Assembly: GCA_033297075.1 (NCBI GenBank)
Contig: MU858115.1
Span: forward strand, 1 to 64,000
Source of the DNA: Rhypophila decipiens
Lineage: Eukaryota > Ascomycota > Sordariomycetes > Sordariales > Naviculisporaceae
DNA: 64,000 nucleotides
Reading direction: 5' to 3'
How positions within the stretch are numbered: position 1 is the first letter of the stretch; the number at the start of each line of letters is the position of its first letter. The notes below the pieces were generated by a model. That model was not told the origin of the DNA. It was given only the letters and a program-made list of their open reading frames with translations, and ran no database searches. Made by a program: the position numbers and the translations under genes. This document shows positions 6,411 to 61,624 of this stretch, piece after piece.

Positions 6411-6688
6411 CTAGCGTCCTGCTCTCATGAACCACACTACACTCGATATTACCCGGACCTCCTTGTATCTCAGTGGTATCTCCAGTTGGATTGTTTTTTC
6501 CGAGAGTAGGCAGCCAAGCTTTTCCACTATTCGCCTGGCCTCTTCGTACTCTAGGGTTGCAATTAGTGATCGGTTAGTAGAAACTAATAGTAGGTTATCA
6601 TACCGTTATCACTGGCCTTCATCGTTCGGCCATAGCTTTCGAGAGGAGCTCGATGCTGTCTCCTATCTCCATAATCTCTACTTTCCAT
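6411..6688 (-). CDS. Small two-exon gene, 74 residues, unknown
   Basis: Exon 1 is 6688-6604, starting with ATG (MESRDYGDRRQ). A 53-base intron (6603-6551) has GTATGA donor, CTAAC branch site and TAG acceptor. Exon 2 is 6550-6411 and ends in TAG. Together they give exactly 75 codons. The protein is charged and helical, with EYEEARRIVEKLGCLL suggesting a short coiled coil. I do not recognise a family. The canonical intron joining two open frames of protein-like composition is the main support. It could also be the surviving tail of a larger gene, since it sits between transposon scraps. Confidence 0.45.
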
Positions 6689-6699
6689 CCCTACCCGAG

Positions 6700-7060
6700 C
6701 CGGCTACATTCAGGTCGTCGACTGGTCAGGATTATAGCTCGAAAAAATGCGGGCCTACCAGGGACCCTGGCCTTGACATCCCTGAAACCAGCATTTTGAT
6801 ATAAGCCACTTAAAAAGCATTCTCTTCGCAGGAATCTAATGAACGAATTTTTGCTACACACATCCCAACGTCTTCAATACTCCCGTCCATCTTCGTTCCT
6901 CAAGGTCTTATGCCTTGAGGAACGAAAGGCTCTTATAGAGGACGCGAAAGGAAGGGAAAGCCCAAAAACCCTACAGACCCACAAACACTCGTCCTTTTTG
7001 TTTTGGTCATGTGTTTTCGTGTGTTTTCGTGTTCTTATACATCTTCTGCTTCATGTGCAA
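6700..7060. mobile_element. Helitron tail fragment, copy C
   Basis: A diverged match to the tail of Helitron copies A and B. It contains the CCAGGGACCCTGGC block, the shared hairpin (6892-6926) and the following CCCACAAACACTCG segment, in the same order and spacing as at 330-560. No helicase coding sequence accompanies it. It is an old fragment or a non-autonomous derivative. Confidence 0.6.
6892..6926. repeat. Perfect inverted repeat (hairpin), copy C
   Basis: Arms of 14 bases (TTCGTTCCTCAAGG and complement) with a 7-base loop TCTTATG. Same arms as in copies A and B, but a different loop. Confidence 0.9.
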
Positions 7061-7069
7061 CGCGTTTGA

Positions 7070-7798
7070 AACGTTATGAGAAACGTTACCCGCTTCAGAT
7101 CCCTTCATCGCTCTCTTGTCCAATCAACAGGGTTCTAATTCGGAACAAATTCTCGAGATTATGGGGGTGTTTTTATTGGGGTTGCCACACGTGACTTGAC
7201 ACACATCGGCTCCCGAAGCCGACAGCGAAAATGAGGGGTTTTCTCTCCTCCTGCATCTCGTCTCTGTGATCAGTATCGTCACGTTTCACACAGTCAAGGC
7301 GTGTCTTCTCCCTCCCTCCATCCCTCTGTACCCAAGTCATCACATACAATCGTACATAGACTTTCAATCTACAGACAATTTTGCCTCCCTGCTTAAGGGA
7401 GCGCGCACGGGGCCCATCTGACGCCCCGCTCATAAGACCGGGAGCGCCAGGTGACCCGTTGTGGCCAAACTACACTACTCTATCCTCTGCTCTTGAATGC
7501 GTGAGGTCACCAATAAAATACCCACTAAATGCCAATTGGGATTGAAGATGAAATCACCACTGCAGCTGGCCTCAGGCATCAAGCCAACGGGTGCGGGGGT
7601 AGATCAGGCATTCAAACATTCGCCCCTCACTTCATGCAACCTTCGCCCGATCTTGGGAATACCTAACCAGTAGGCAGTGCTTTTATGTCTGTCTATCCTC
7701 GAAAGGAACGCAATAGAAGTCAATATTTGCAAGTAGACTTCTCTGCTTATGAAATCTAGCCCTCTATTGTTTAATTCTCTGTTACTTCACAAGCCAAC
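7070..7798. other. Upstream region of the NLR gene
   Basis: No coding region is supported here. The stretch precedes the NLR start at 7799 and presumably held its promoter. No clear TATA element or known binding site was identified. Confidence 0.6.
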
Positions 7799-9052
7799 AT
7801 GGCCGACCCGTTCGGGATCATTGGCGTTGTCGGTGTCGCCACTCAGGTCATCCAGACGACTGTTCAGTTTGGGCTGGATTGGAAGGACGCCCCATCTGAG
7901 GCGAGAACTTTCATTGACGAACTTCAGGCTTTCAAGACAGTACTGTCTGAGACGAACATGAACATCATAGTTAACCCGGACTTTGAAGATGCATTTCGCG
8001 GTCGTCGCTCCACACTGCTATCGCAGCTTGGGCCGACGGCACAGAGCACAGACACGCAGCGCATGGTTTCAGACTGTCATGCAGAGATGCGAGTTCTCCT
8101 TGATAACTTAAAGAAGCGATCTCGGGGCCACAGAGTTGGATGGGAAAGACTCAAGGGGGCTTTTCTGTCGACGAAAACGAGAGAGGCAGTAGGGAACCTG
8201 CACCGGCAATGCCAGCCCTTAAACCAACTACTAGCGATCGACTCTGCGGCGTTGATAGCAAGCACTCATCGCGAGGTTAAGGAAGGCCAAAGGCAGCAGC
8301 AGCAAATCCATCGTGTTCAGTACCACGTCTTGGATCATATACGTCACCGCATTGATAGTCAAGATGCCAGTGTCGAACGAAAGACGATCCTTGAGTGGCT
8401 CACACCAATCGATTACACCTCTCAACAGATTGACTTCATCAAACGGCGGCAGTCTGGAACTGGCCAATGGCTTCTGGACTCCCGAGACTTTCAAGAGTGG
8501 CTAAAAGGCGGCCAAAAGACCCTCTTCTGTCCCGGTATCCCGGAAGCCGGCAAGACGATTCTCACCGCCGTCGTTATCGAGTATCTCATTAACCGGTATC
8601 ACAACGACCCGACTGTCGGCATTGCCTACATTTACTGTAACTTCCGGCAAACAGACAAACAAACACTCGATGACTTGCTTGCCAGCCTCCTCCGACAGCT
8701 TGCTGAGTCGCTGCCCCCTCTGCCACAACCCGTCACGGACCTCTACGAGCGCCACAAGACGAAGCGGACACGGCCATCCACAGCCGAGCTCTCAAAAGCT
8801 CTGCAAGGTATTAATGCTTTTTCAAGAGCATTTGTCCTTGTCGACGCTCTTGACGAGTGCCAAACATCCAATGAGTGCCGGTTGTGATTAATCGAGGAGC
8901 TTTTTGGTTTCCAAGCGCACTGCAAAGTGAACCTTTGGACAACGTCCAGGTTCATCCCCGAGGTCACCGACAAGTTCGGCCGCAATTCTTGCAAAATCCT
9001 TTCGAGGAGGCGTAACATGCCGCTTCATGCTCTTTGGGAGTATGCCGTATAA
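7799..9052 (+). pseudogene. HeLo-like/NACHT NLR, truncated
   Basis: N-terminal residues 1 to about 160 resemble the HeLo-like N-terminal domain of fungal STAND proteins (start MADPFGIIGVVGVA). A NACHT-type nucleotide-binding domain follows, with Walker A GIPEAGKT (about 242-249) and Walker B FVLVDALDE (about 348-356). The frame stops at TGA 8885-8887, directly after DECQTSNECRL. Reading past it gives LIEELFGFQAHCKVN and TTSRFIPEV, the normal next NACHT segment, so the stop is a break, probably CGA to TGA. Family resemblance fades after about 8980, and the frame ends at 9050-9052. No winged-helix, ankyrin, WD or TPR repeats follow. Helitron B starts about 110 bases downstream. Intact relatives sense ligands through C-terminal repeats and trigger cell death. 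Confidence 0.85.
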
Positions 9053-19657: not shown

Positions 19658-21559
19658 TCACTCGCTATCACTTGTCTTTTCGAGTGACGACAGAGCCGCA
19701 TTGAACAACTTCTCGACATCATCTTCTCCCCGCGCGCTCCTTAAACCTTCAGTTAAAACAGCGCTATTCAACAGACTCCGCCTCAAGCCCGAAACATCGT
19801 AACCATCTGGCGCCATTTTCTCCAGTAATTCAGCAGTCAACCGAAGCTGCTCAGTCGACCAATTATTATTGACGTCCCTGAAAAAATTGCTCGTCACCCT
19901 TGGCTCCTCCTCTGCGGGGCCACCGCCGCCGACGGATCTATCCTGTCCTGCTCCTCGAGATTCAAAAGACGGGGCCTCAAACGTCATGCGCTCGCCAAAA
20001 TGCTCCCATGGCGGGGTCTGCTCGTCAGTGCACACGGGCATTGCTGTGGGAAAGACACTCAAGCTTGAAGGCAATTTTCCCGGCCACCGCCCAAAGACGG
20101 ACGTGTTTGGGATGTTGGGGATCTCGCTGGGCCAGGCCTGTGACTCCCTGTAGGCCACGGCGCGAGCGAGAACCGCAGTGGCGTTTTGGGAGCGCTCGCC
20201 GAGGATGAGGTTACTAAGCAATGGCGTCTGCCGCACCCCCTCGGCTTGCATGGTTGATTTGACGTCGGCGCCCGCATCGATGAGAGCTTTGGCGCATGAT
20301 TCAGTGCCTCTCATGGCTGCCGCGTGAAGGGGAGTGGCGCCGGTGTTCGGATCCGCAGCGTTGGGGTCAGCGTGCGCGGCCAGAAGTGCCTGGACGTCTT
20401 GGATTTGATCGCGCATGACGGCAAAGTGAAGGGGTCGCATGCCGGAACTTTTCTCCTGGGCGTTGACGTCGGCGCCTGCGGCGATGAGGATCTGGACTGC
20501 CTCGTGGAATTTGCTCACGATGGCGGACATGAGAGGTGTCCGACCACGGTCGTCGGGGATGTTGGGGTTTGCATCGTGCTGGAGGAGGAGGTTGATGGTA
20601 CGGGGTGTGACGCTGTGCTGCTGGTTGATGGCGGCGGCACCTAGAGGGGTGATGCCGTGTTCGGCTCGGCTCCAGTTGGGATCGGCTCCTTTGGAGAGAA
20701 GGCTCTCGACTTTGGCTTCGTGTCCTCGCAGAACTGCCATATAGATCGGGGTAAGACCATCGCTTGGGCGGGCTGCATTGGGCTCGGCGCCGTGCTCTAG
20801 CAGAAGGTTGACGATAGAGGCATCTTCGTCGCCCTTGCTGCACGCCAGGTGCAGTGCTGTATCCCCGTGGACGTTGGGCGGATTGGGGTCAGCCTTGAAC
20901 TGCAAAAGCAGATGGACAAGCTCCAGATTGTCTCCGTTAACCGCGGACTGGACCGCTGTGAATCCGTCGTTATCTGCTGCGTCCGGATCGGCGGATGACC
21001 TAAGAAGTTCCGCAGCGGCCTCGTTGGTTCCCATGATGCAACAGACAAGAAGCGGCGTGCATCCCACATTGTCCTTCGCCTCTGTGCAGGCTGGTGCATC
21101 TGATAACAGTGCGCGGACAACTTCAGCATGTCCTTGGTGGCAGGCATGGTGTAGCGGCGTCCACAGCTTGGAGTCCCGGACATCGACCCTGGCGCCTGCC
21201 ACAAGAAGCATTTGCGCAATGCTCAGATGGCCTCCCATGGCTGCCACAATGAGCGGGTAGAGTTCATGTTCCTCATGCAGCCTGCCAACACCACGAGAAA
21301 GCAGTTCCCGGACCTTTGGCTCATCCCCCGAAGTGATTGCTCCGTAGAGTTGCCGTTCGTCTGCCGAGAGTTCGCTGAAGTCGTAGAATATGGAGCGAGC
21401 GCGGGCGGCCATATCCGTCGAAGGGCTTTGGAAAAGCAAGGCTAGAAGACTTGCTTTCAAGCCATCATCATCGGACTCTGAGTCATGCCCATCTGCTGTT
21501 TCGCCCCATGGCGATGGCGAATGCTGATTTCGCGAGTGTACTGAATGGTGATTCCCCAT
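19658..21559 (-). CDS. Ankyrin-repeat protein
   Basis: Single-exon gene of 633 residues. The start MGNHHSVHS has glycine at position 2, so N-myristoylation is possible. Residues from about 70 to 440 hold around ten ankyrin repeats. Examples are TPLHHACHQGHAEVVRALL, DTALHLACSKGD and TPLHAAAMRGTESCAKALI. The last 190 residues have no repeats and are rich in proline, serine and acidic residues. No kinase, NACHT or lipase-like domain is visible, so this is a stand-alone adaptor or the sensor half of a split system. It lies 775 bp from the 3' end of the gasdermin-like gene, on the same strand. A role in that module is possible but only inferred from location. Confidence 0.9.
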   Translation of the reverse strand: MGNHHSVHSRNQHSPSPWGETADGHDSESDDDGLKASLLALLFQSPSTDMAARARSIFYDFSELSADERQLYGAITSGDEPKVRELLSRGVGRLHEEHELYPLIVAAMGGHLSIAQMLLVAGARVDVRDSKLWTPLHHACHQGHAEVVRALLSDAPACTEAKDNVGCTPLLVCCIMGTNEAAAELLRSSADPDAADNDGFTAVQSAVNGDNLELVHLLLQFKADPNPPNVHGDTALHLACSKGDEDASIVNLLLEHGAEPNAARPSDGLTPIYMAVLRGHEAKVESLLSKGADPNWSRAEHGITPLGAAAINQQHSVTPRTINLLLQHDANPNIPDDRGRTPLMSAIVSKFHEAVQILIAAGADVNAQEKSSGMRPLHFAVMRDQIQDVQALLAAHADPNAADPNTGATPLHAAAMRGTESCAKALIDAGADVKSTMQAEGVRQTPLLSNLILGERSQNATAVLARAVAYRESQAWPSEIPNIPNTSVFGRWPGKLPSSLSVFPTAMPVCTDEQTPPWEHFGERMTFEAPSFESRGAGQDRSVGGGGPAEEEPRVTSNFFRDVNNNWSTEQLRLTAELLEKMAPDGYDVSGLRRSLLNSAVLTEGLRSARGEDDVEKLFNAALSSLEKTSDSE

Positions 21560-22334: not shown

Positions 22335-23371
22335 TCAGAGCTCAAGTCCCAACGAGAGCCATTTGCCGGTGTCGGAAGTTTGAAACTCCTGTGGGTTGAG
22401 GCTCCGGCTTGCATCATGCTTAGGCCAGACGTACACATCAGCATCCTTCCCGGTCTCCTCATACTCGTCAAGAATTTTGTCGAGAGTTTCCATTTCCGCT
22501 TCGACTTCTGGATTGGTAGAATGGAGTAAGTACCATGTCGACGTCGAGGTTCGCTCAACCTTCGCTCAAAGAGGAAATTGGGATGACGGGTCATACCTTC
22601 CATCTCATCAACGCCCTTGCTGCCCCCGAATATAGTTCCGTCACTGAAAGGTGTATGATTGACTATTTTAATCCTCGAATTGTAAAATATGCCGGGCGTT
22701 CCGATCTCGCGCCATTGGATTCCGATGACGTGCTCTTCGACGTATTTGGCCTTCATCTGCGCCATCTCGTTTTCCGTGTAGGTGGCCTTGATTTCGACAT
22801 TCATGCGTCTCAGAAGCTCAATTCCTGAAGCATCCGCGAGCAGGTCGCTGAAGGACACCGTTGCGCATTTCTCCGCGTTGATGGCCCGAATAATCTTGAG
22901 TTCTGCTTCCATCACCGTGATCATTCCGACTGCAAGGAACACACGAACCGATCTTTCCAAGATACTGCCCTTCAAATGCTCCAGCGCCCAGCTCTTTGCT
23001 TCCTTATCCTGTTCCATGAAGTGGTGAAGATAGTCTTGCTCTTGCTGGAGGGTGTAAATGCGTAGTGTTTGGGCATTAATGCTTCTGCCCTGCTGTTTGA
23101 CAGAGCCGAGGCAGCCGGAGACCAGGCTGTCCAGCTTTCCCTCCACTTTCTTCTCTCGCGCACGTTCGCTGAGCCATTCGAAGTTATCCACTTTGTTGAT
23201 TTCAGGGCGTGCCGTGGTCGTATATGGCGGAGCAGACCCACGCTGGGGACGAAAGTCCTGCAGTGGCTGGAGTGGATTGAGATGGAGACGTCCTAGGAAG
23301 TCGTGGAGCTCATTAGCAGGGGGCGCTCCCGTCAACGGCCCAATGAACAGATATTTCGCCTCGACGGCCAT
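22335..23371 (-). CDS. Gasdermin-like protein candidate
   Basis: Exon 1 is 23371-22597, an 89-base intron (22596-22508) has GTATGA and CAG, and exon 2 is 22507-22335. The spliced length is exactly 316 codons (315 residues). Splicing replaces an unlikely tail with an acidic one ending WLSLGLEL. The N-terminal part has FLGRLHLNPLQPLQDF, like the LG-x-I-x-DP start of fungal gasdermins. Later beta-strand-like segments are SVRVFLAVGMITVMEAELK and HVIGIQWREI, like the paired strands that form the pore barrel. Length fits known fungal members (about 250-300). The strongest support is context: a CHAT protease gene starts 757 bp away, divergently, as in many fungal gasdermin loci. The acidic C-terminal tail would be the expected cleavable inhibitory part. 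Direct sequence evidence for the family is moderate. Confidence 0.6.
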
Positions 23372-24128
23372 GATGTTTTGTTGAAGCGTGCCGTGCGGCA
23401 GGTGATTGAATAGTCAAGCAAAAGAGCAATGTAGAGGTGTCACAATACGTGAATCAGCTGGAGTTGGGGATGATCGCCGTCCGACGTCTGATAAACAATT
23501 TAAGAAACATGGGACCTGGAAGCTAACTGAGATGTTGACAAAATATATGCCACAGGTGAAGTATTGCAGGTACAAGTGGAATACACCTGAGTTGTCAGAA
23601 CGTGGGCACGACAGCCGTAGGCAGTACCACCGATCAGCACACTCACCAGCTGGAACCTGATGATGATGACCTGATGTGGCGTTGCGTGTCTTGCCAATGA
23701 GAGGTACCCAAATGCAAACTAATGCATGTACCCAAGTATCAGACAATGTCAGTAATAAAGTCTCCTGTTCTTCTGGCTCTATGCATCAAAGGAACCAATG
23801 ACAATGACTGTCAGGCGACGGACCACGATGAATGCAGACCACAGTGGCATGACAGATGCTTTTTGGGATTGACATTCTTTCTGTCCATGCTCAGGTTGTG
23901 TGCCTAGCCACACCTGAATCTCAATGGTGCGCCTTGGTCATCGTTACTTCAGAGATGTGGGGTTGGCCCTTGAAAAACCTCTTGCCGTTCTTCACATCCA
24001 AGTCATTTCCAACCCGAGCACTGGACCTCACGGTGTCTATCTCAAACTTTCATCATCGCCGCCTTGCGCAAATCTCGTTTATTGAGTTCAGTTTCTATAC
24101 AACCGAAGGGTTAACTGTTGCAGGAACC
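23372..24128. other. Divergent intergenic region between gasdermin-like and CHAT genes
   Basis: 757 bases between two start codons facing away from each other. It should hold both promoters and could allow co-regulation. The CHAT frame has no stop back to 23856, but that extension looks non-coding and ends in GTTAACTGTTGCAG, which could be an intron acceptor for a 5' leader exon. Confidence 0.6.
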
Positions 24129-27100
24129 ATGGTTGGAGGATGCCCACACGCAGTCCACGAGATCATCATTTCAGCAGTCGGAGACGACGGGGAGCAACTT
24201 AGCGTTCCTGTTCTTTCACAGGGGGTCCAACTTGGGCCTGTCAAAAGCCTAAATATTTCCACACTCCGTCAAGAGCAATGGGGTCTGAAGACAGAATTTT
24301 TGTACGAGGACTACATCCGCCAACCCCTACGGGTTGAGCGCGCCAATGAGTCAAAGGAGGTCCTGACGGGCTTTGCGAGGGAGGTCATCCGAGATTTGGA
24401 GTTGGGGGCGATCATCGAGGAGGCCATGCTCCACCAAGATACCAAGGTCATCATCAAGATCGAAGCCAGTGTGGAACGCTTCCATGGACTGCCCTGGGAG
24501 GTGCTGGAGAACCCCGAAGTTTGGAGGGAGGCAAGTGCGACACCGGGCCAACATGTCCCCGACATCATGGTGTGCAGATCGGTCACGGCATCTTCAGCGA
24601 CGGAAGAGAAAGTGGATGCAAGGGGCGTCACCGTACCTCACAGCTCTGTCGAGGAGATCAACATTCTTCTGGTTGTGGCACGGAAAAACGGACCGACCAG
24701 CGACAGGCCCGACATCAACTACCGACTCAACGCACTTCCTCTCACACAATTGGTGGACGAGATGGGACCGAAGGCAAGACTCTATATTGCGAGACCCGGC
24801 ACATATCAAAGCTTCAAGAGTGCACTTGGTGATAGGAGATACGACGTGGTGCATCTAGACTTGCATGGTCTGTCCGTGGCTGGAGTGTATGCCAAGCTGG
24901 GGTTTACAGCACCGACAGCCTCGCGAAGCGAGCGGGGCGAGGGGCTAGAATGGATTTCGGCCAGCGATGTCGCAGGTCATTTGGTTCGCAATGGAGTTCC
25001 CCTGGTCGTTGTAAACGCCTGTCAGAGCGCCAGCGGTGGGGTGGGCGTGTCGAATCTCGCAGCGGTTCTCGTGGGCCGTGGGGTTGAGTCCGTCGTTGGC
25101 ATGACGCATAGCGTTCACGAAGATGCTGTGCGCATCTTTGTCCCCAAATTCTACACTTCTTACCTCATCGACGGCCAGTCTGCCGTGGAATCGACCTATC
25201 GCGCCCGCCGAGCTCTCCAACGCAATCCCTTACGCAATGCCAAAACTTTCGGCATGGAGATTGACCTCAACGACTACATCTTGCCGGCCGTATTTCAGGC
25301 GCGTGGCCGAGTCGGCTTGGCAACACGCTGCGTGGTGGAAGAGCTGGAAACCGCGGCGGCACTGGCAGGTGAAAAACCCGACCCTGGACCGGAGCGAGGC
25401 GCACCTTCCCATGCCGACAACTTGAAGACGCCATTCTTCGGTCGGGACGCCGACATGTTTCAGGTTGAGAGGAAGTTGTTCCTTCGAGGACCGACAGGCC
25501 TTATCCACGGATGGGCCTGTGCGGGTAAGACGACTCTCATCGACCATCTTGCTGATTGGTGGCGGAAATCGGGCTTTATCTCCGAGGTACGACGAATCGT
25601 GGTCCCCGAGGGTGACGACGTTCGTGGCTTAGCAACTGAGCAAGCACAACTCGCTGTCCCAATGAGCTCACCAAAGTCCGACCCGTCATCGCCTGTTCTC
25701 CCATCCCTCATTGTCATTGAGCACTTGGAAGACTTGCCGCGAGATCGTTATCCGCAGTTAGTCCAGTATCTTGTTGACGCGACACGTCATCAGAAGGCTG
25801 TGGTAATCATGTCCAGCGAAGACCTCAACTTTCACAGCCACGCAATTGCGGCGGGATGTCCTATCTGGAACTACGACTTGGAAGGCTCGGACCCACGCGA
25901 TACGCTGAAGTATCTATCTTCGTGTCTGAAGCCGGCGGTATCGGCTGCAGCGGTAACGGGAAAGAACTCTACGTCTTCGACGGATCTTCGCTACCTGCGC
26001 CGAATTCTGCGTCTCTTCGACTACAACCCTGTTGCTGTCGTTGAACTTGAATCCTTTCTTCGCCGTACTGGCATGTCACCGAGCCAAGTATTCTGGCAGC
26101 TCCAATCCCACCCTCTTGGAATGACGTGGTCATCGCAGTCCGCCGCACGACTCGTGCAGGTGCTTCGCGGCAAGTTGCCCCTCCGTCCAAGTGGCTCACC
26201 TGCTGGATGGCTGCCCTGGCCCACGCTATCAGGTGGTCATTTCTTTTACCATCAGATCCGAACACCAGATACATCAAGCGATCCGAATATTACGCCGCCC
26301 ATGAGGGATTACTTGACCAGTCCCCAGGTGACACGTCACCCAAGGGATAAGGGTACCGATGTCCTTCATCCGTTGGTGGTCGAGTGGATTCGACAAGTAT
26401 ACGCGAACCAGGAGGCGAACAGAGACTCATCGATGAGAAACACGGTTACACACTACTTCAACATTTGCCGTGGGTTTTCGACATCAAAGGAGCGGCATAC
26501 ATGGCTCTCGGACGAAGAGTTCCTGAATTTGGTGGCTTGTATGGAATTCTGTCTCAATTTACAGGCATCTACAGCGGAGCCCGACGCTGGCATCATTCTG
26601 GATCTGCTGTGGGCCACATGCCTCCGCGCCCAGTGCGTCACGGCGACGGCACCGACTCAGCAGACACTCGAAGATCAGGAACTCCTGGCGGACTTGTCGA
26701 CAGCCGTGGTTATGGTCAGGCTGCCGCGATTCAGGCCCTTTGATAGCGATACGTGGGATGCTTACAATGGCGCCTGTCTGTCCGAGTACGCCACCAAATC
26801 AGCCCTCTCTGTCTTAGATACAGCAAGACTTGCTCTGCATTGCCTGTTTCTCGCAAAGTTCTCGGTTTCGTCCACTGCCACCGCACGGCCGTGGGTCTTG
26901 GCTTCGAAGCTTCTCCTCCAAGAAGTGGACCTACTTGGCTCGGAGGCGGGCGTGCATACACTGCTAAGGTTTCTGAAGTGCTCAGCAGTTGTCCTGGATA
27001 TGGAGCTTGGTTGCAAGAAGATGACACCACTCAAGGACCTGGTTGATCTGAGCCGCAAACTGAATTCGATTCAGCTACCCACGGCAGAGATGAAATTCAT

Positions 27101-28228
27101 TTCGACATGGACAAATGACTGCATATGTAGATTTGGCGGGAGCGTTGTTAGTCCCACCTCGCACGGCTTCGAGGAACGTCTTCAGTGCGTATGCGAGGCA
27201 ACCAGTGGGGTACGTCATTGCCCTTTCTTTGTCTTTACCATTTCGAGATCCAATTATGGTTACTGACAGAACCTGCAGCTCGATGAGCAGAGTCCTCATG
27301 TGGTTGCGTTCAGTTCAGCTCTCGACATATTGAATGCCAGCAAGGAGGATGGCAGAGGCAGTGCGACCCAGAAAGTAATGGTTGATAGGCAGATCCAGAA
27401 GTTGGAAGACAAGCTCGCAGACGCCATCTCTTCGGGCGAAATATCTTTAGAGACTGTCGTTCTGCGTCTTTTACTTCAAGTGAGCCCACCCTTCCCGGTT
27501 TGAAGCCTTGCTGCTCGACGAGACCTACTTCCCTAGCGCCGGAGTGTGGATGCGGGGTCCGTTGTGAACAGCGATTTAGTTACATGTTCTTCTAACACTC
27601 TCAACCCCAGGTACGACTCCACAGAGGCGAATGGGGAACCTCTCTGCTACTTGTCGATCGGCTCGAGTCTGCCCTTGGAGCGTCCGAGTTCCTGCCGGGG
27701 CTTTCGACGGATGAGCAAGTTCACAAACGCTGGGGAATTCGGTTCGAGAGAATCCGAGCAGAATGCCATCATTTTCTTGGCCACAGCGAAGAGTTCGAAC
27801 ATCACGCGGAAAAGCTGAGGCAGCTCCGAGAAGCCCGCGAGAGCAAGTGGACCTACGAGCATATGCGAGAAGAAGCGATTGCGAATGCCGTCTCTTCGAA
27901 CGTTGCCACGTTGCAGAGGGGTTTTGCAAAGCACGCACACGGCGCCTCGGGCCCCTCCGGATTACAGAACCAGAGATTGTTGAGAAGGGAGAAGATGACG
28001 AGGGAGATGCTGGACCAGAGGCTATCATCTCCTTTGGACAAGCTGGCGGACCCGGTGTTTTCCAAGATTTCCGACCAGCTGGAAAGCGCCGCCTCCGCGA
28101 CCTACAGCTTGGACATGGCAGTCGAGAGCCCGGATGTCGATTATCCCTCCATGTTCCTTGAGAGGTTCCAGCCCTATGCTATCGACCTGTTCTTTGCTTG
28201 TATTCAACGTCCGGGGGGAAGTGGTTGA
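24129..28228 (+). CDS. CHAT protease/NTPase (NLR-like) protein
   Basis: Three exons: 24129-27209, 27279-27479 and 27611-28228, all joined in phase 0, giving 1299 residues. Intron 1 has GTACGT and CTGCAG, intron 2 GTGAGC, CTAAC and CCCCAG. Residues about 1-390 form a CHAT domain: the LPWEVLENP segment, then the catalytic pair His246 (VHLDLHG) and Cys298 (VVVNACQSASGG). A P-loop NTPase follows, with Walker A GWACAGKTTL (about 461) and Walker B LIVIEHLED (about 527). The rest is helical without recognisable repeats and ends in charged coiled-coil-like sequence. CHAT proteases are caspase-like and cut gasdermins in bacteria and probably fungi. The layout matches an NLR with a protease effector, and the neighbour is the likely substrate. 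An upstream non-coding exon is possible. Confidence 0.88.
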
Positions 28229-59073: not shown

Positions 59074-60517
59074 GAGTTGCAAGCACATCTGGAGCTGGTG
59101 CAGCACCTGGCCGCAGAGGATATCATTTACATTCTATTGGGATATATAGATTATCTCTTGGTCGTTGGGGGTTTGTTGTCATTGTGTATTTTATTCCCGC
59201 CGTCGTCTTGAGAGATGGCTCATCACCCCAACTGGGTGCCAGAAAAAGGTAGAAGGGAGTGGTTATTGGGTGTATCTTTGGCGGCCCTTTTCTTTGGATT
59301 TTCTTCATGTGAAGTAAGTGTAATGTTATCTAGCTTTCCCCTTTCCCGCTCTTGGGTTGGGTAGGATGAATAGAGGAGGAATGACTGACGCAAGGAATGG
59401 AATACTGTTGTGAGAACAGCAGACATTGTTTAGACACAGTGTACCTCTAACAAAAACAAGCCGAATCAAGGCTTGCATTATGTTCTTCAAGCTTTTCGTT
59501 GTGAGAATCATCTCCCCGTTGCGGTTGAGCCAACCTGCCTGGGTCACTGAGTTGACAGCTCGCTTCCCATAGTGCTCCGAAACCACGCATTCCAGCCCCA
59601 TGTAGCCGAACCCACAATTACATGACCACACCTCTACCAAAGGAGCTAGAACTTGGTTATCAAGTCGCGTTTGTGGTGATAATGGCAAAGAAAACTACAC
59701 CGATAATCTGCGTTCTGGTGTAATACCACCCATCATGATGGCTGGACTTCACGTACGGTTCAACCCGGGGAAGACTGAATCCCACCACTAGGAGCGAGCG
59801 AGCGATATTACCATCTCTGGTTTTCTCTGATGTAGAGAGAAGCTTTCTGATTGGCAATTTGAATATCATGATATCGGCTTTAGCTATTCGGGATTGGAAT
59901 GAATGTCTGGCGAACCGAGCACATGGGTTTGGGAGGCCAACGCCAGCCGTCCAGCGACGTCCGAATTCCACAACATGTAAAGTGCTTGATCGGTGTGGAA
60001 GTCGTACAGCTTACGAAATCCTATCCCATGTTTCCCTAATTAGCGAACCACTGGCATGATTACTTTGGATTCTATTTCGAGGTCAGTCATATTTGATCCT
60101 CCCCCGAGAACCCGCGAATAGGCAACAAGTACCGGGCATTTGCTGGTTACTTTTTACCTAATGGTCTTTACTTTGCCAATCGAAAAAAGGCCGAATGGAA
60201 TGTCGACGCGGATCTATCCGTCGGGAGCGCTGCCGCTGTTTCGGACCCTGAAGGGTTGAAAGAAATACGAGTACTCATGTAGGCCTGTTGCCCGACGAAG
60301 GCTCATTTTTATAAATAACCCCCATAGGTTCCGTCAGTGCATCTCCCTTGCCCACGTCAGTTATCAGCAACTTGAGCAAGGCCTTTGATCACCCAGAAAA
60401 CTACTTACCTTGGTACGTAGTACAGAAAGCTCCTCAAGCTATTATCTGCTCAGTTCAAAGTTCAAACCCAACTGACCAGTCAGTCTCGTTCACAGAATAA
60501 ACCTTGCTCCGCCTAAC
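59074..60517. other. Intergenic, nothing recognised
   Basis: Short frames only. Plus-strand TTCACGTACGGTTC near 59748 resembles one strand of a group II intron domain V, but the other strand is missing. A TATA-like element at 60308-60317 precedes the lectin gene. Confidence 0.6.
60308..60317 (+). promoter_or_regulatory. TATA-like element upstream of the lectin gene
   Basis: TTATAAATAA lies about 200 bases before the lectin start codon, in pyrimidine-flanked sequence. The distance allows a normal 5' leader. Confidence 0.3.
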
Positions 60518-61624
60518 ATGTCCAACTACATGAACATCACTCTTCCGCCCCGCAGCGCCGGGAAGCTGTCGCTAGCCTCTCTCCTCGGCCATGCCTCCAT
60601 CGCCGCCGTCTCCTGGGGCAAGTCCCGGCTCGACATCTTCAGCCTTGGCACCGACAACCAAATGTTCCACAAAGCATGGGACGGCTCCGCATGGCGGCCT
60701 GGCGTCAAAGACTGGGAGGCCATCGGCGGCGTGTTTACCAGCCCGCCCGCCGCCGTGTCGTGGGGCACCAACAGGCTCGACATTGTCGGGCTGGGCACCG
60801 ACAACTCGCTGTATCACAAGTGGTGGAACGGCGCATGGGGTCCGTCGACCGTCGGCTGGGAATATCTAGGCGGCGTGTTCAGCAGCCCGCCTGCCATGGT
60901 GTCTTGGGGCTCTGACCGGCTTGATATCTTCGGCTTGGGGACCGATAACCAGATGTTTCATAAAGCGTGGGATGGGTCGGCGTGGCGCCCTAGTCTGGTG
61001 GACTGGGAGGCTCTGGGTGGTATCTTTGTCAGCCCGCCGGCCGTGGCGTCGTGGGGACCTAATAGGCTGGATGTCTTTGGCTTGGGCACGAACAACGGCA
61101 TGTTCCACAAGGCTTGGGACGGGTCGGCCTGGCGGCCTCCTACCTCTGACTGGGAATATCTTGGCGGGGTGTTTAACAGCGAGCCGGCAGTGGTTTCTTG
61201 GGGCGCTAATAGGCTCGATATCTTTGGTATTGGCACCGATAACCAGATGTACCACAAGTGGTGGAATGGCGGCGCATGGGGACCGTCGACTACCGGGTGG
61301 GAGGCCCTGGGAGGGGTTTTTACAAGCACGCCCACGGTAGTCTCGTGGGGGCCGAATAGGATCGACATCTTTGGTTTGGGTACTGATAATGCTTTGTACC
61401 ACAAGGCTTGGGATGGGAATGCCTGGCGCCCGTCTGTCAGTGGATGGGAGTATCTCGGCGGCGTCTTTAGCAGCCCGCCGGTGGCGGTTTCTTGGGACAA
61501 CAATAGGCTGGATATCTTTGGACTTGGGACTGATAACCAGATGTATCACAAGGCGTGGGATACTTCGAGGTGGTATCCTTCTGTCACGGACTGGGAAGCG
61601 ATTGGCGGCGTGTTTAAGCCGTAG
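60518..61624 (+). CDS. Seven-bladed PLL-like beta-propeller lectin
   Basis: Single-exon gene of 368 residues. After a 25-residue N-terminus there are seven repeats of about 48 residues, each with a VSWG-x-NRLDIFGLGTDN core, then YHKWWNG or FHKAWDG, and ending WE-x-LGGVF. This matches PLL-type lectins (Photorhabdus, also fungal), which bind fucose and related sugars in pockets between blades. Blades 2 and 5 carry KWWNG with a shorter insert, the other five carry KAWDG or KAWD. No signal peptide is visible, so it is probably cytoplasmic, as for fungal defence lectins. The high internal repeat identity suggests recent blade duplication or ongoing homogenisation. Confidence 0.92.
   Translation: MSNYMNITLPPRSAGKLSLASLLGHASIAAVSWGKSRLDIFSLGTDNQMFHKAWDGSAWRPGVKDWEAIGGVFTSPPAAVSWGTNRLDIVGLGTDNSLYHKWWNGAWGPSTVGWEYLGGVFSSPPAMVSWGSDRLDIFGLGTDNQMFHKAWDGSAWRPSLVDWEALGGIFVSPPAVASWGPNRLDVFGLGTNNGMFHKAWDGSAWRPPTSDWEYLGGVFNSEPAVVSWGANRLDIFGIGTDNQMYHKWWNGGAWGPSTTGWEALGGVFTSTPTVVSWGPNRIDIFGLGTDNALYHKAWDGNAWRPSVSGWEYLGGVFSSPPVAVSWDNNRLDIFGLGTDNQMYHKAWDTSRWYPSVTDWEAIGGVFKP

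Follow-up and report, generated by a model that had tools for sequence, protein, structure and literature searches.

A CHAT protease gene and a putative, highly divergent gasdermin gene form a head-to-head pair in Rhypophila decipiens

Introduction

According to passages of PMC12881547, a short C-terminal part, which in HET-Q1 measures about 5 kDa, keeps fungal gasdermins inactive; in Podospora anserina, a TPR-bearing CHAT protease activates the neighbouring gasdermin (Clave et al. 2022, as cited in those passages of PMC12881547). In passages of PMC10197012, about 80% of the published fungal gasdermin (fGSDM) genes have a protease gene no more than 10 kb away, and about 63% of fungal gasdermin genes are clustered with S8 protease genes and 19% with CHAT genes; NLR (NOD-like receptor) or NLR-like CHAT proteins encoded beside gasdermin genes are described, in parts of PMC10197012 and PMC9815663, as 'contracted pyroptotic-like pathways'. 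Here we analyze a pair of this kind on contig MU858115.1 of the dung fungus Rhypophila decipiens (Sordariales, Naviculisporaceae), in a window made up of the first 64,000 nucleotides of the contig: a gasdermin-like gene and a CHAT gene, arranged head to head and transcribed divergently. The published precedent for protease/gasdermin pairing, on which an earlier sequence-only reading of this DNA had leaned, holds up in the passages cited (PMC12881547, PMC10197012).

We consider the pair to be, quite probably, a module of two genes for regulated cell death, of the gasdermin/protease kind known from fungi, in which the smaller, 315-residue protein is a highly divergent gasdermin. The layout has already been published; the novelty most likely lies in the great distance between this pore protein and its relatives. 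No paper in the library that we searched pairs 'Rhypophila' with 'gasdermin', a statement confined to that library.

Results

Structure of the gene pair

In what follows, P0001 is the 315-residue protein and P0002 and P0003 are its relatives; P0004 is the 1299-residue CHAT protein and P0005 its relative. The coordinates previously proposed for both genes proved right: the spliced minus-strand product is identical across all 315 residues to the NCBI hypothetical protein QBC37DRAFT_423654, and the plus-strand gene, mapped as three pieces from 24129 to the TGA at 28228, reproduces the 1299-residue protein listed by NCBI as 'CHAT domain-containing protein'. Their divergent orientation was likewise confirmed, with 757 bp between them. 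The parts of the pair are as follows (window coordinates):

22335..22507, minus strand: gasdermin-like gene, exon 2, encoding the acidic C-terminal tail, to the TGA
22508..22596, minus strand: gasdermin-like gene, intron of 89 nt, GT..AG, GTATGA...CCAATCCAG
22597..23371, minus strand: gasdermin-like gene, exon 1, residues 1-258 plus one base, comprising the whole predicted pore-domain part; spliced product exact
23372..24128, no strand: intergenic stretch, 757 bp between both start codons
24129..27209, plus strand: CHAT gene, exon 1, residues 1-1027, exact match to P0004
27279..27482, plus strand: CHAT gene, exon 2, residues 1028-1095, ends placed to within a codon, exact match to P0004
27614..28228, plus strand: CHAT gene, exon 3, residues 1096-1299, start placed to within a codon, to the TGA

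From its coordinates, the 757-bp stretch is presumed to be a shared divergent promoter. The acidic tail attributed to the 315-residue protein is real: the last 58 residues of P0001, encoded almost wholly by exon 2, hold 16 D/E against 5 K/R. In the tails of five other gasdermins of the genome (tail borders set by eye), acidic residues outnumber basic ones too. The 58-residue tail would be a natural candidate for proteolytic removal.

Profile comparisons tentatively relate P0001 to fungal gasdermins

We built a reference profile from eight fungal gasdermins (five from the R. decipiens genome, plus RCD-1-1, RCD-1-2 and HET-Q1) and compared it with the first 250 columns of the three-row alignment of P0001, P0002 and P0003, column shuffles serving as the null. 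In global mode, the query aligned end to end with a score of 11.6, which none of 200 shuffles reached (mean 2.9, maximum 9.4); the reversed alignment scored 3.8. As a control, 18 blocks of 250 columns taken from the CHAT alignment scored at most 8.2 globally (two more blocks were dropped for gaps). Among single sequences, P0001 reached 9.4 in global mode (maximum of 40 shuffles, 6.3), and pairwise comparison of P0001 with the gasdermin encoded on contig C363 gave a BLASTP E of 0.056 and an hhalign P of 0.059. A search with a gasdermin hidden Markov model (HMM), the check that had been suggested, gave a divided answer: over 4550 sequences P0001 came first, P0003 fourth and P0002 107th, but with an E of only 0.13 for P0001, which has no match in Pfam or NCBIfam. 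Note that several variants of the profile tests were run and that the shuffle counts are uncorrected for multiple testing.

The second and third places in this HMM search were taken by two fetched copies of an open reading frame (ORF) on contig C279 (L021:1085-1786, minus strand), and the query HMM likewise ranked this ORF above all other outsiders (E 0.1, against 0.63 for the best shuffle). This ORF acts as a bridge. Indeed, P0001 matches it by BLASTP with an E of 0.003 over residues 26-89, and in hhalign comparisons none of 100 shuffles equalled either the match between the N-terminal half of P0001 plus P0002 and the C279 ORF or that between the C279 ORF and the N-terminal half of the gasdermins, in local and global modes alike. 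When the C279 ORF was added to the gasdermins, the 250-column, three-row query scored 23.3 locally (null maximum 22.8) and 21.3 globally (null maximum 13.9), with 0/100 shuffles in both modes. Joining it to the query instead also gave 0/100 in both modes, a test on which we do not rely because the C279 sequence alone may carry the score.

The bridge ORF and a CHAT fragment (L021:1860-2396, plus strand) stand head to head; the fragment shares 88.6% identity over 166 residues with the CHAT portion of the C319 gene. This pair looks like a decayed relic, since the CHAT fragment appears to lack its upstream part (by eye) and has an altered His motif. A stretch of 39 residues on C306 (L039) shares 90% identity with the beginning of the bridge ORF.

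Evidence weighing against the gasdermin assignment

Several results weigh against the assignment of P0001 to the gasdermins. The local score of the query, 16.8, was not significant, being reached by 22 of 200 shuffles, and the reversed alignment scored 20.5. Without the C279 ORF, the N-terminal half did not match the gasdermins significantly (68 and 55 of 100 shuffles), and the C-terminal half, which no shuffle out of 100 reached globally, was reached locally by nine. P0002 taken alone scored 1.5, below its own null mean, and in the reverse HMM search seven of the eight gasdermins ranked between 65 and 1637, while RCD-1-2 was not reported. Structure prediction and comparison with RCD-1, also suggested earlier, came out both ways: with gasdermin rows in the alignment, AlphaFold gave a low-confidence model (predicted local distance difference test, pLDDT, 38.8) for which gasdermins headed the structural list, RCD-1 first (PDB 8JYZ, 8JYY and 8JYX; identity 12-13% in the structural alignments), whereas in the negative control, based on the three close homologues only (pLDDT 32.2), no gasdermin was shown. 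The fold match thus appears to depend on the alignment, as gasdermins emerge only when gasdermin rows are included.

Direct searches recognised no family for P0001 in Pfam, NCBIfam or PDB sequences, and the three-row profile found nothing of note in the PDB. PF04598, the animal-type Gasdermin model of Pfam, does not match P0001, a miss that is not diagnostic for fungal gasdermins because the same model has zero matches in the whole R. decipiens genome, though five fungal gasdermins are present there; the C363 protein, the only one of the five whose gasdermin frame was scanned with Pfam, likewise has no Pfam match. Among candidates from 5.8 billion proteins, retrieved by a search that needs shared exact 5-residue words and similar length, sequence and profile queries returned at E<=10 only P0001 itself and two metagenome relatives, P0002 (71% identity over 79% of P0001) and P0003 (58% over 57%). 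Scans of prokaryotic genome contigs and viral contigs with the three-row alignment found no relative of P0001, and a second scan of prokaryotic contigs, for which the query was the C363 gasdermin and not P0001, came back empty.

P0001 could also be an orphan, lineage-specific substrate or effector of the CHAT protease that resembles gasdermins by chance, in which case the two genes would still encode a protease and its effector but act in another way. Such an origin fits the lack of a recognisable family, the finding of only two homologues among the candidates and the non-significant local tests made without the bridge, but it has to contend with the global test (0/200), the bridge tests (0/100 each way), the CHAT fragment that adjoins the bridge gene as well, and the place of RCD-1 at the head of the (biased) fold list, and we hold it to be unlikely. 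The 'gasdermin-like beta strands' of the sequence-only reading, a by-eye call that cannot settle the matter, have the global profile and bridge tests on their side and Pfam, NCBIfam, the PDB and the direct local profile against them. On balance, we regard P0001 as likely to be a gasdermin, with a putative homology that lies at twilight significance.

If P0001 is a gasdermin, it lies far out from the others: known gasdermins left out singly (n=8) scored 74-161, compared to 11.6 for the query. Such divergence, together with the stretch of residues from about 63 to 95, which is charged by eye and has no confident structure, would also suit a gasdermin by descent whose membrane hairpins were lost or remodelled and which makes no pores, perhaps a decoy or a regulator of other gasdermins. 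We find this improbable, given a frame that has been kept open, the presence of the acidic tail and the 71% identical relative, which is probably still linked to a CHAT gene in a second fungus.

The 1299-residue CHAT protein

The larger protein of the pair carries the following features (window coordinates):

24483..25238, plus strand: CHAT peptidase domain PF12770, residues 119-370 of P0004 (E 1.3e-16, 61.3 bits, cut-off 24)
24864..24866, plus strand: His246 (HLDLHG), predicted catalytic, invariant in four aligned CHAT proteins
25020..25022, plus strand: Cys298 (NACQS), predicted catalytic nucleophile, invariant in four aligned CHAT proteins
25509..25535, plus strand: Walker A (P-loop) motif GWACAGKTT, residues 461-469, with G461, G466 and K467 invariant in all four

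The CHAT alignment comprises four of the 16 proteins found: P0004, P0005 (metagenome), one from Staphylotrichum (a fungus) and one from Actinospica (an actinobacterium). The CHAT protease domain announced for this protein is borne out by the PF12770 match, and Cys298 is indeed the cysteine of NACQS, kept like His246; their catalytic roles we assume from our knowledge of the CHAT family. The 'P-loop NTPase' (nucleoside triphosphatase) stands in part: the Walker A motif starts at residue 461, but no NTPase family in P0004 reaches its Pfam cut-off, and P0005, the closest relative of P0004, reads GKA where P0004 has GKT (Thr to Ala). A PDB profile search with the four-row CHAT alignment gave three weak matches, the best of which (E 0.11) was the P-loop of adenylate kinase. 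C-terminal repeats (WD40, TPR, ANK) were sought in P0004, and no Pfam repeat appeared at E<=5. Because of the missing Pfam NTPase above cut-off, the GKA of P0005 and the lack of recognised C-terminal repeats, we describe P0004 as a CHAT protein with an apparently NLR-like layout and do not call it an NLR.

Linkage and neighbourhood

The gene structures, the CHAT domain with its Cys and His and the proximity of the two genes are observed: a protease gene lies within 10 kb of the P0001 gene, namely the CHAT gene, 757 bp off and divergent. P0002 and P0005 (63% identity to the CHAT protein) list the same longest contig size, 16,942 bp. In the simplest reading of this coincidence, a single 16,942-bp contig probably carries both relatives, i.e. 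the linkage is conserved. Chance could also have brought a CHAT protease gene head to head with an unrelated neighbour, and there are only two instances of linkage to set against this, the second resting on equal contig sizes instead of read sequence. That both closest relatives list this same size and that the related gene on C279 adjoins a CHAT fragment nevertheless make a chance arrangement very improbable.

The neighbours of the pair had been described as decayed, and selection had been deduced from the contrast. The first claim finds no general support: the gene that follows the gasdermin-like gene downstream, on the same strand (19658-21559, minus), is an open ORF of 633 residues with ankyrin repeats. 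The argument for selection is not borne out where examined, at this open neighbour, and a better one is the linkage that is probably conserved in a second fungus.

Elsewhere in the window, an ORF at 7775-8884 (plus strand) carries an NPHP3_N domain, a STAND-type NTPase domain of fungal NLRs, and could represent another NLR-like gene or a fragment of one. Seven DUF346 stretches, and also a match to fungal lectin, lie in a frame of 382 residues at 60476-61621 (plus strand).

Other gasdermins and CHAT loci of the genome

The five gasdermins of the genome came from an 80-residue generic motif, which follows the gasdermin family pattern and was used as a query against the PDB and the R. decipiens genome. 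In the PDB, five of the 15 rows were fungal gasdermins (RCD-1-2, E 0.00013; HET-Q1, 0.00098; RCD-1-1, 0.017), and an unrelated surface protein ranked third (E 0.0054). In the genome, the motif matched four places, the follow-up of which yielded five fungal gasdermin genes:

C363: L024
C163: L029/L042
C347: L030/L040
C92: L031/L035
C345: L025/L032

Each of them matches the profile of the other seven gasdermins (hhalign P <=1.1e-13), and the C363 protein matches RCD-1-2 with an E of 2.6e-10 over residues 15-218. S8 protease (subtilase) genes adjoin those on C363, C163 and C347; the 9.9 kb examined around that on C92 and the 7.5 kb around that on C345 showed no protease (three ORFs were checked with Pfam and the others by eye). 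This pattern of neighbours fits the published S8/CHAT clustering statistics. The C347 gasdermin, beside an S8 gene, is by eye the most HET-Q1-like of the genome. Two further matches were dropped, that on C213 (E 0.13) for want of a gasdermin-like frame by eye, and that on C64 (E 0.68).

We applied the gasdermin HMM to ORFs of 100 residues or more from the window and from stretches around other CHAT loci, and inspected by eye the subset of 170 residues or more. Among the ORFs so screened, only the P0001 gene and the C279 ORF stood out, in a screen that intron-split genes could escape. On three contigs, caspase-domain (PF00656) genes lie within a few kb of CHAT genes with TPR-like parts (by eye), the latter being:

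C166: L014:3698-5890 and 6655-8775
C257: L015:4151-6379
C69: L023:6103-8205

On C304 (L020), two pieces of similar look have no Pfam match.

Discussion

Taken as a gasdermin/protease module, the pair would work as follows; cleavage, tail inhibition, pore, death and trigger are all proposed from precedent only. The pore-forming N-terminal part of P0001 (about residues 1-250) would be kept inactive by the short acidic C-terminal tail. The 1299-residue protein would be a one-piece sensor-protease, in which a caspase-like CHAT peptidase at the N terminus is followed by a P-loop region and then by a large C-terminal portion free of repeats by Pfam. Upon some trigger, the sensor would activate its own CHAT domain and the tail would be cut off; the freed N-terminal part would then oligomerise in the membrane and kill the cell.

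We consider it an even chance that P0001 and the C279 relic represent a fast-evolving clade of fungal gasdermins that is linked to CHAT genes, has gone unrecognised and is missed by profile searches. If they do, published counts of fungal gasdermins are too low, genes annotated as 'hypothetical' next to those of CHAT or S8 proteases deserve screening for gasdermins, and the 1299-residue partner would join a receptor and a caspase-like protease in a single chain, so that two genes would make up a full pathway from sensor to pore. Should the CHAT protein combine receptor and protease in this way, the pair would offer a compact system in which to test a contracted inflammasome-caspase-gasdermin path. 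Gasdermin/protease pairs connect fungal self-suicide with animal pyroptosis and bacterial phage defence, and a member missed by standard searches suggests that the family is larger than catalogued. The most useful part of the analysis may be the approach: the CHAT/S8 neighbourhood combined with an intermediate bridge sequence may find gasdermins that profiles miss.

How does the pair compare with known systems? RCD-1 of Neurospora crassa gives the best structural matches of the low-confidence P0001 model; its trigger, according to passages of PMC12881547, is the meeting of two alleles, with no protease. With HET-Q1/HET-Q2 of P. anserina, the pair would share a gasdermin with a short C-terminal tail under protease control (PMC12881547, in part); as these passages have it, HET-Q2 is a subtilisin-like serine protease, unlike the CHAT protein here, and HET-Q1 and HET-Q2 are alternative genes at one locus and not a head-to-head pair. 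The HET-Q1-like gene of R. decipiens is, by eye, the one on C347 and not that of P0001. In the TPR-CHAT/gasdermin cluster of P. anserina, as far as the passages cited describe it, a CHAT gene adjoins a gasdermin gene, an arrangement like that of our pair. P0004 differs in its P-loop motif and in the absence of any TPR that Pfam recognises, and P0001 is identified as a gasdermin with much less certainty. Finally, compared to the NLR-like CHAT/gasdermin pairs, P0004 has an NTPase region that passes no Pfam cut-off and no recognised C-terminal repeats, but it shares with them, as they appear in the portions cited, an N-terminal CHAT domain followed by a nucleotide-binding motif, with a gasdermin-like gene adjoining.
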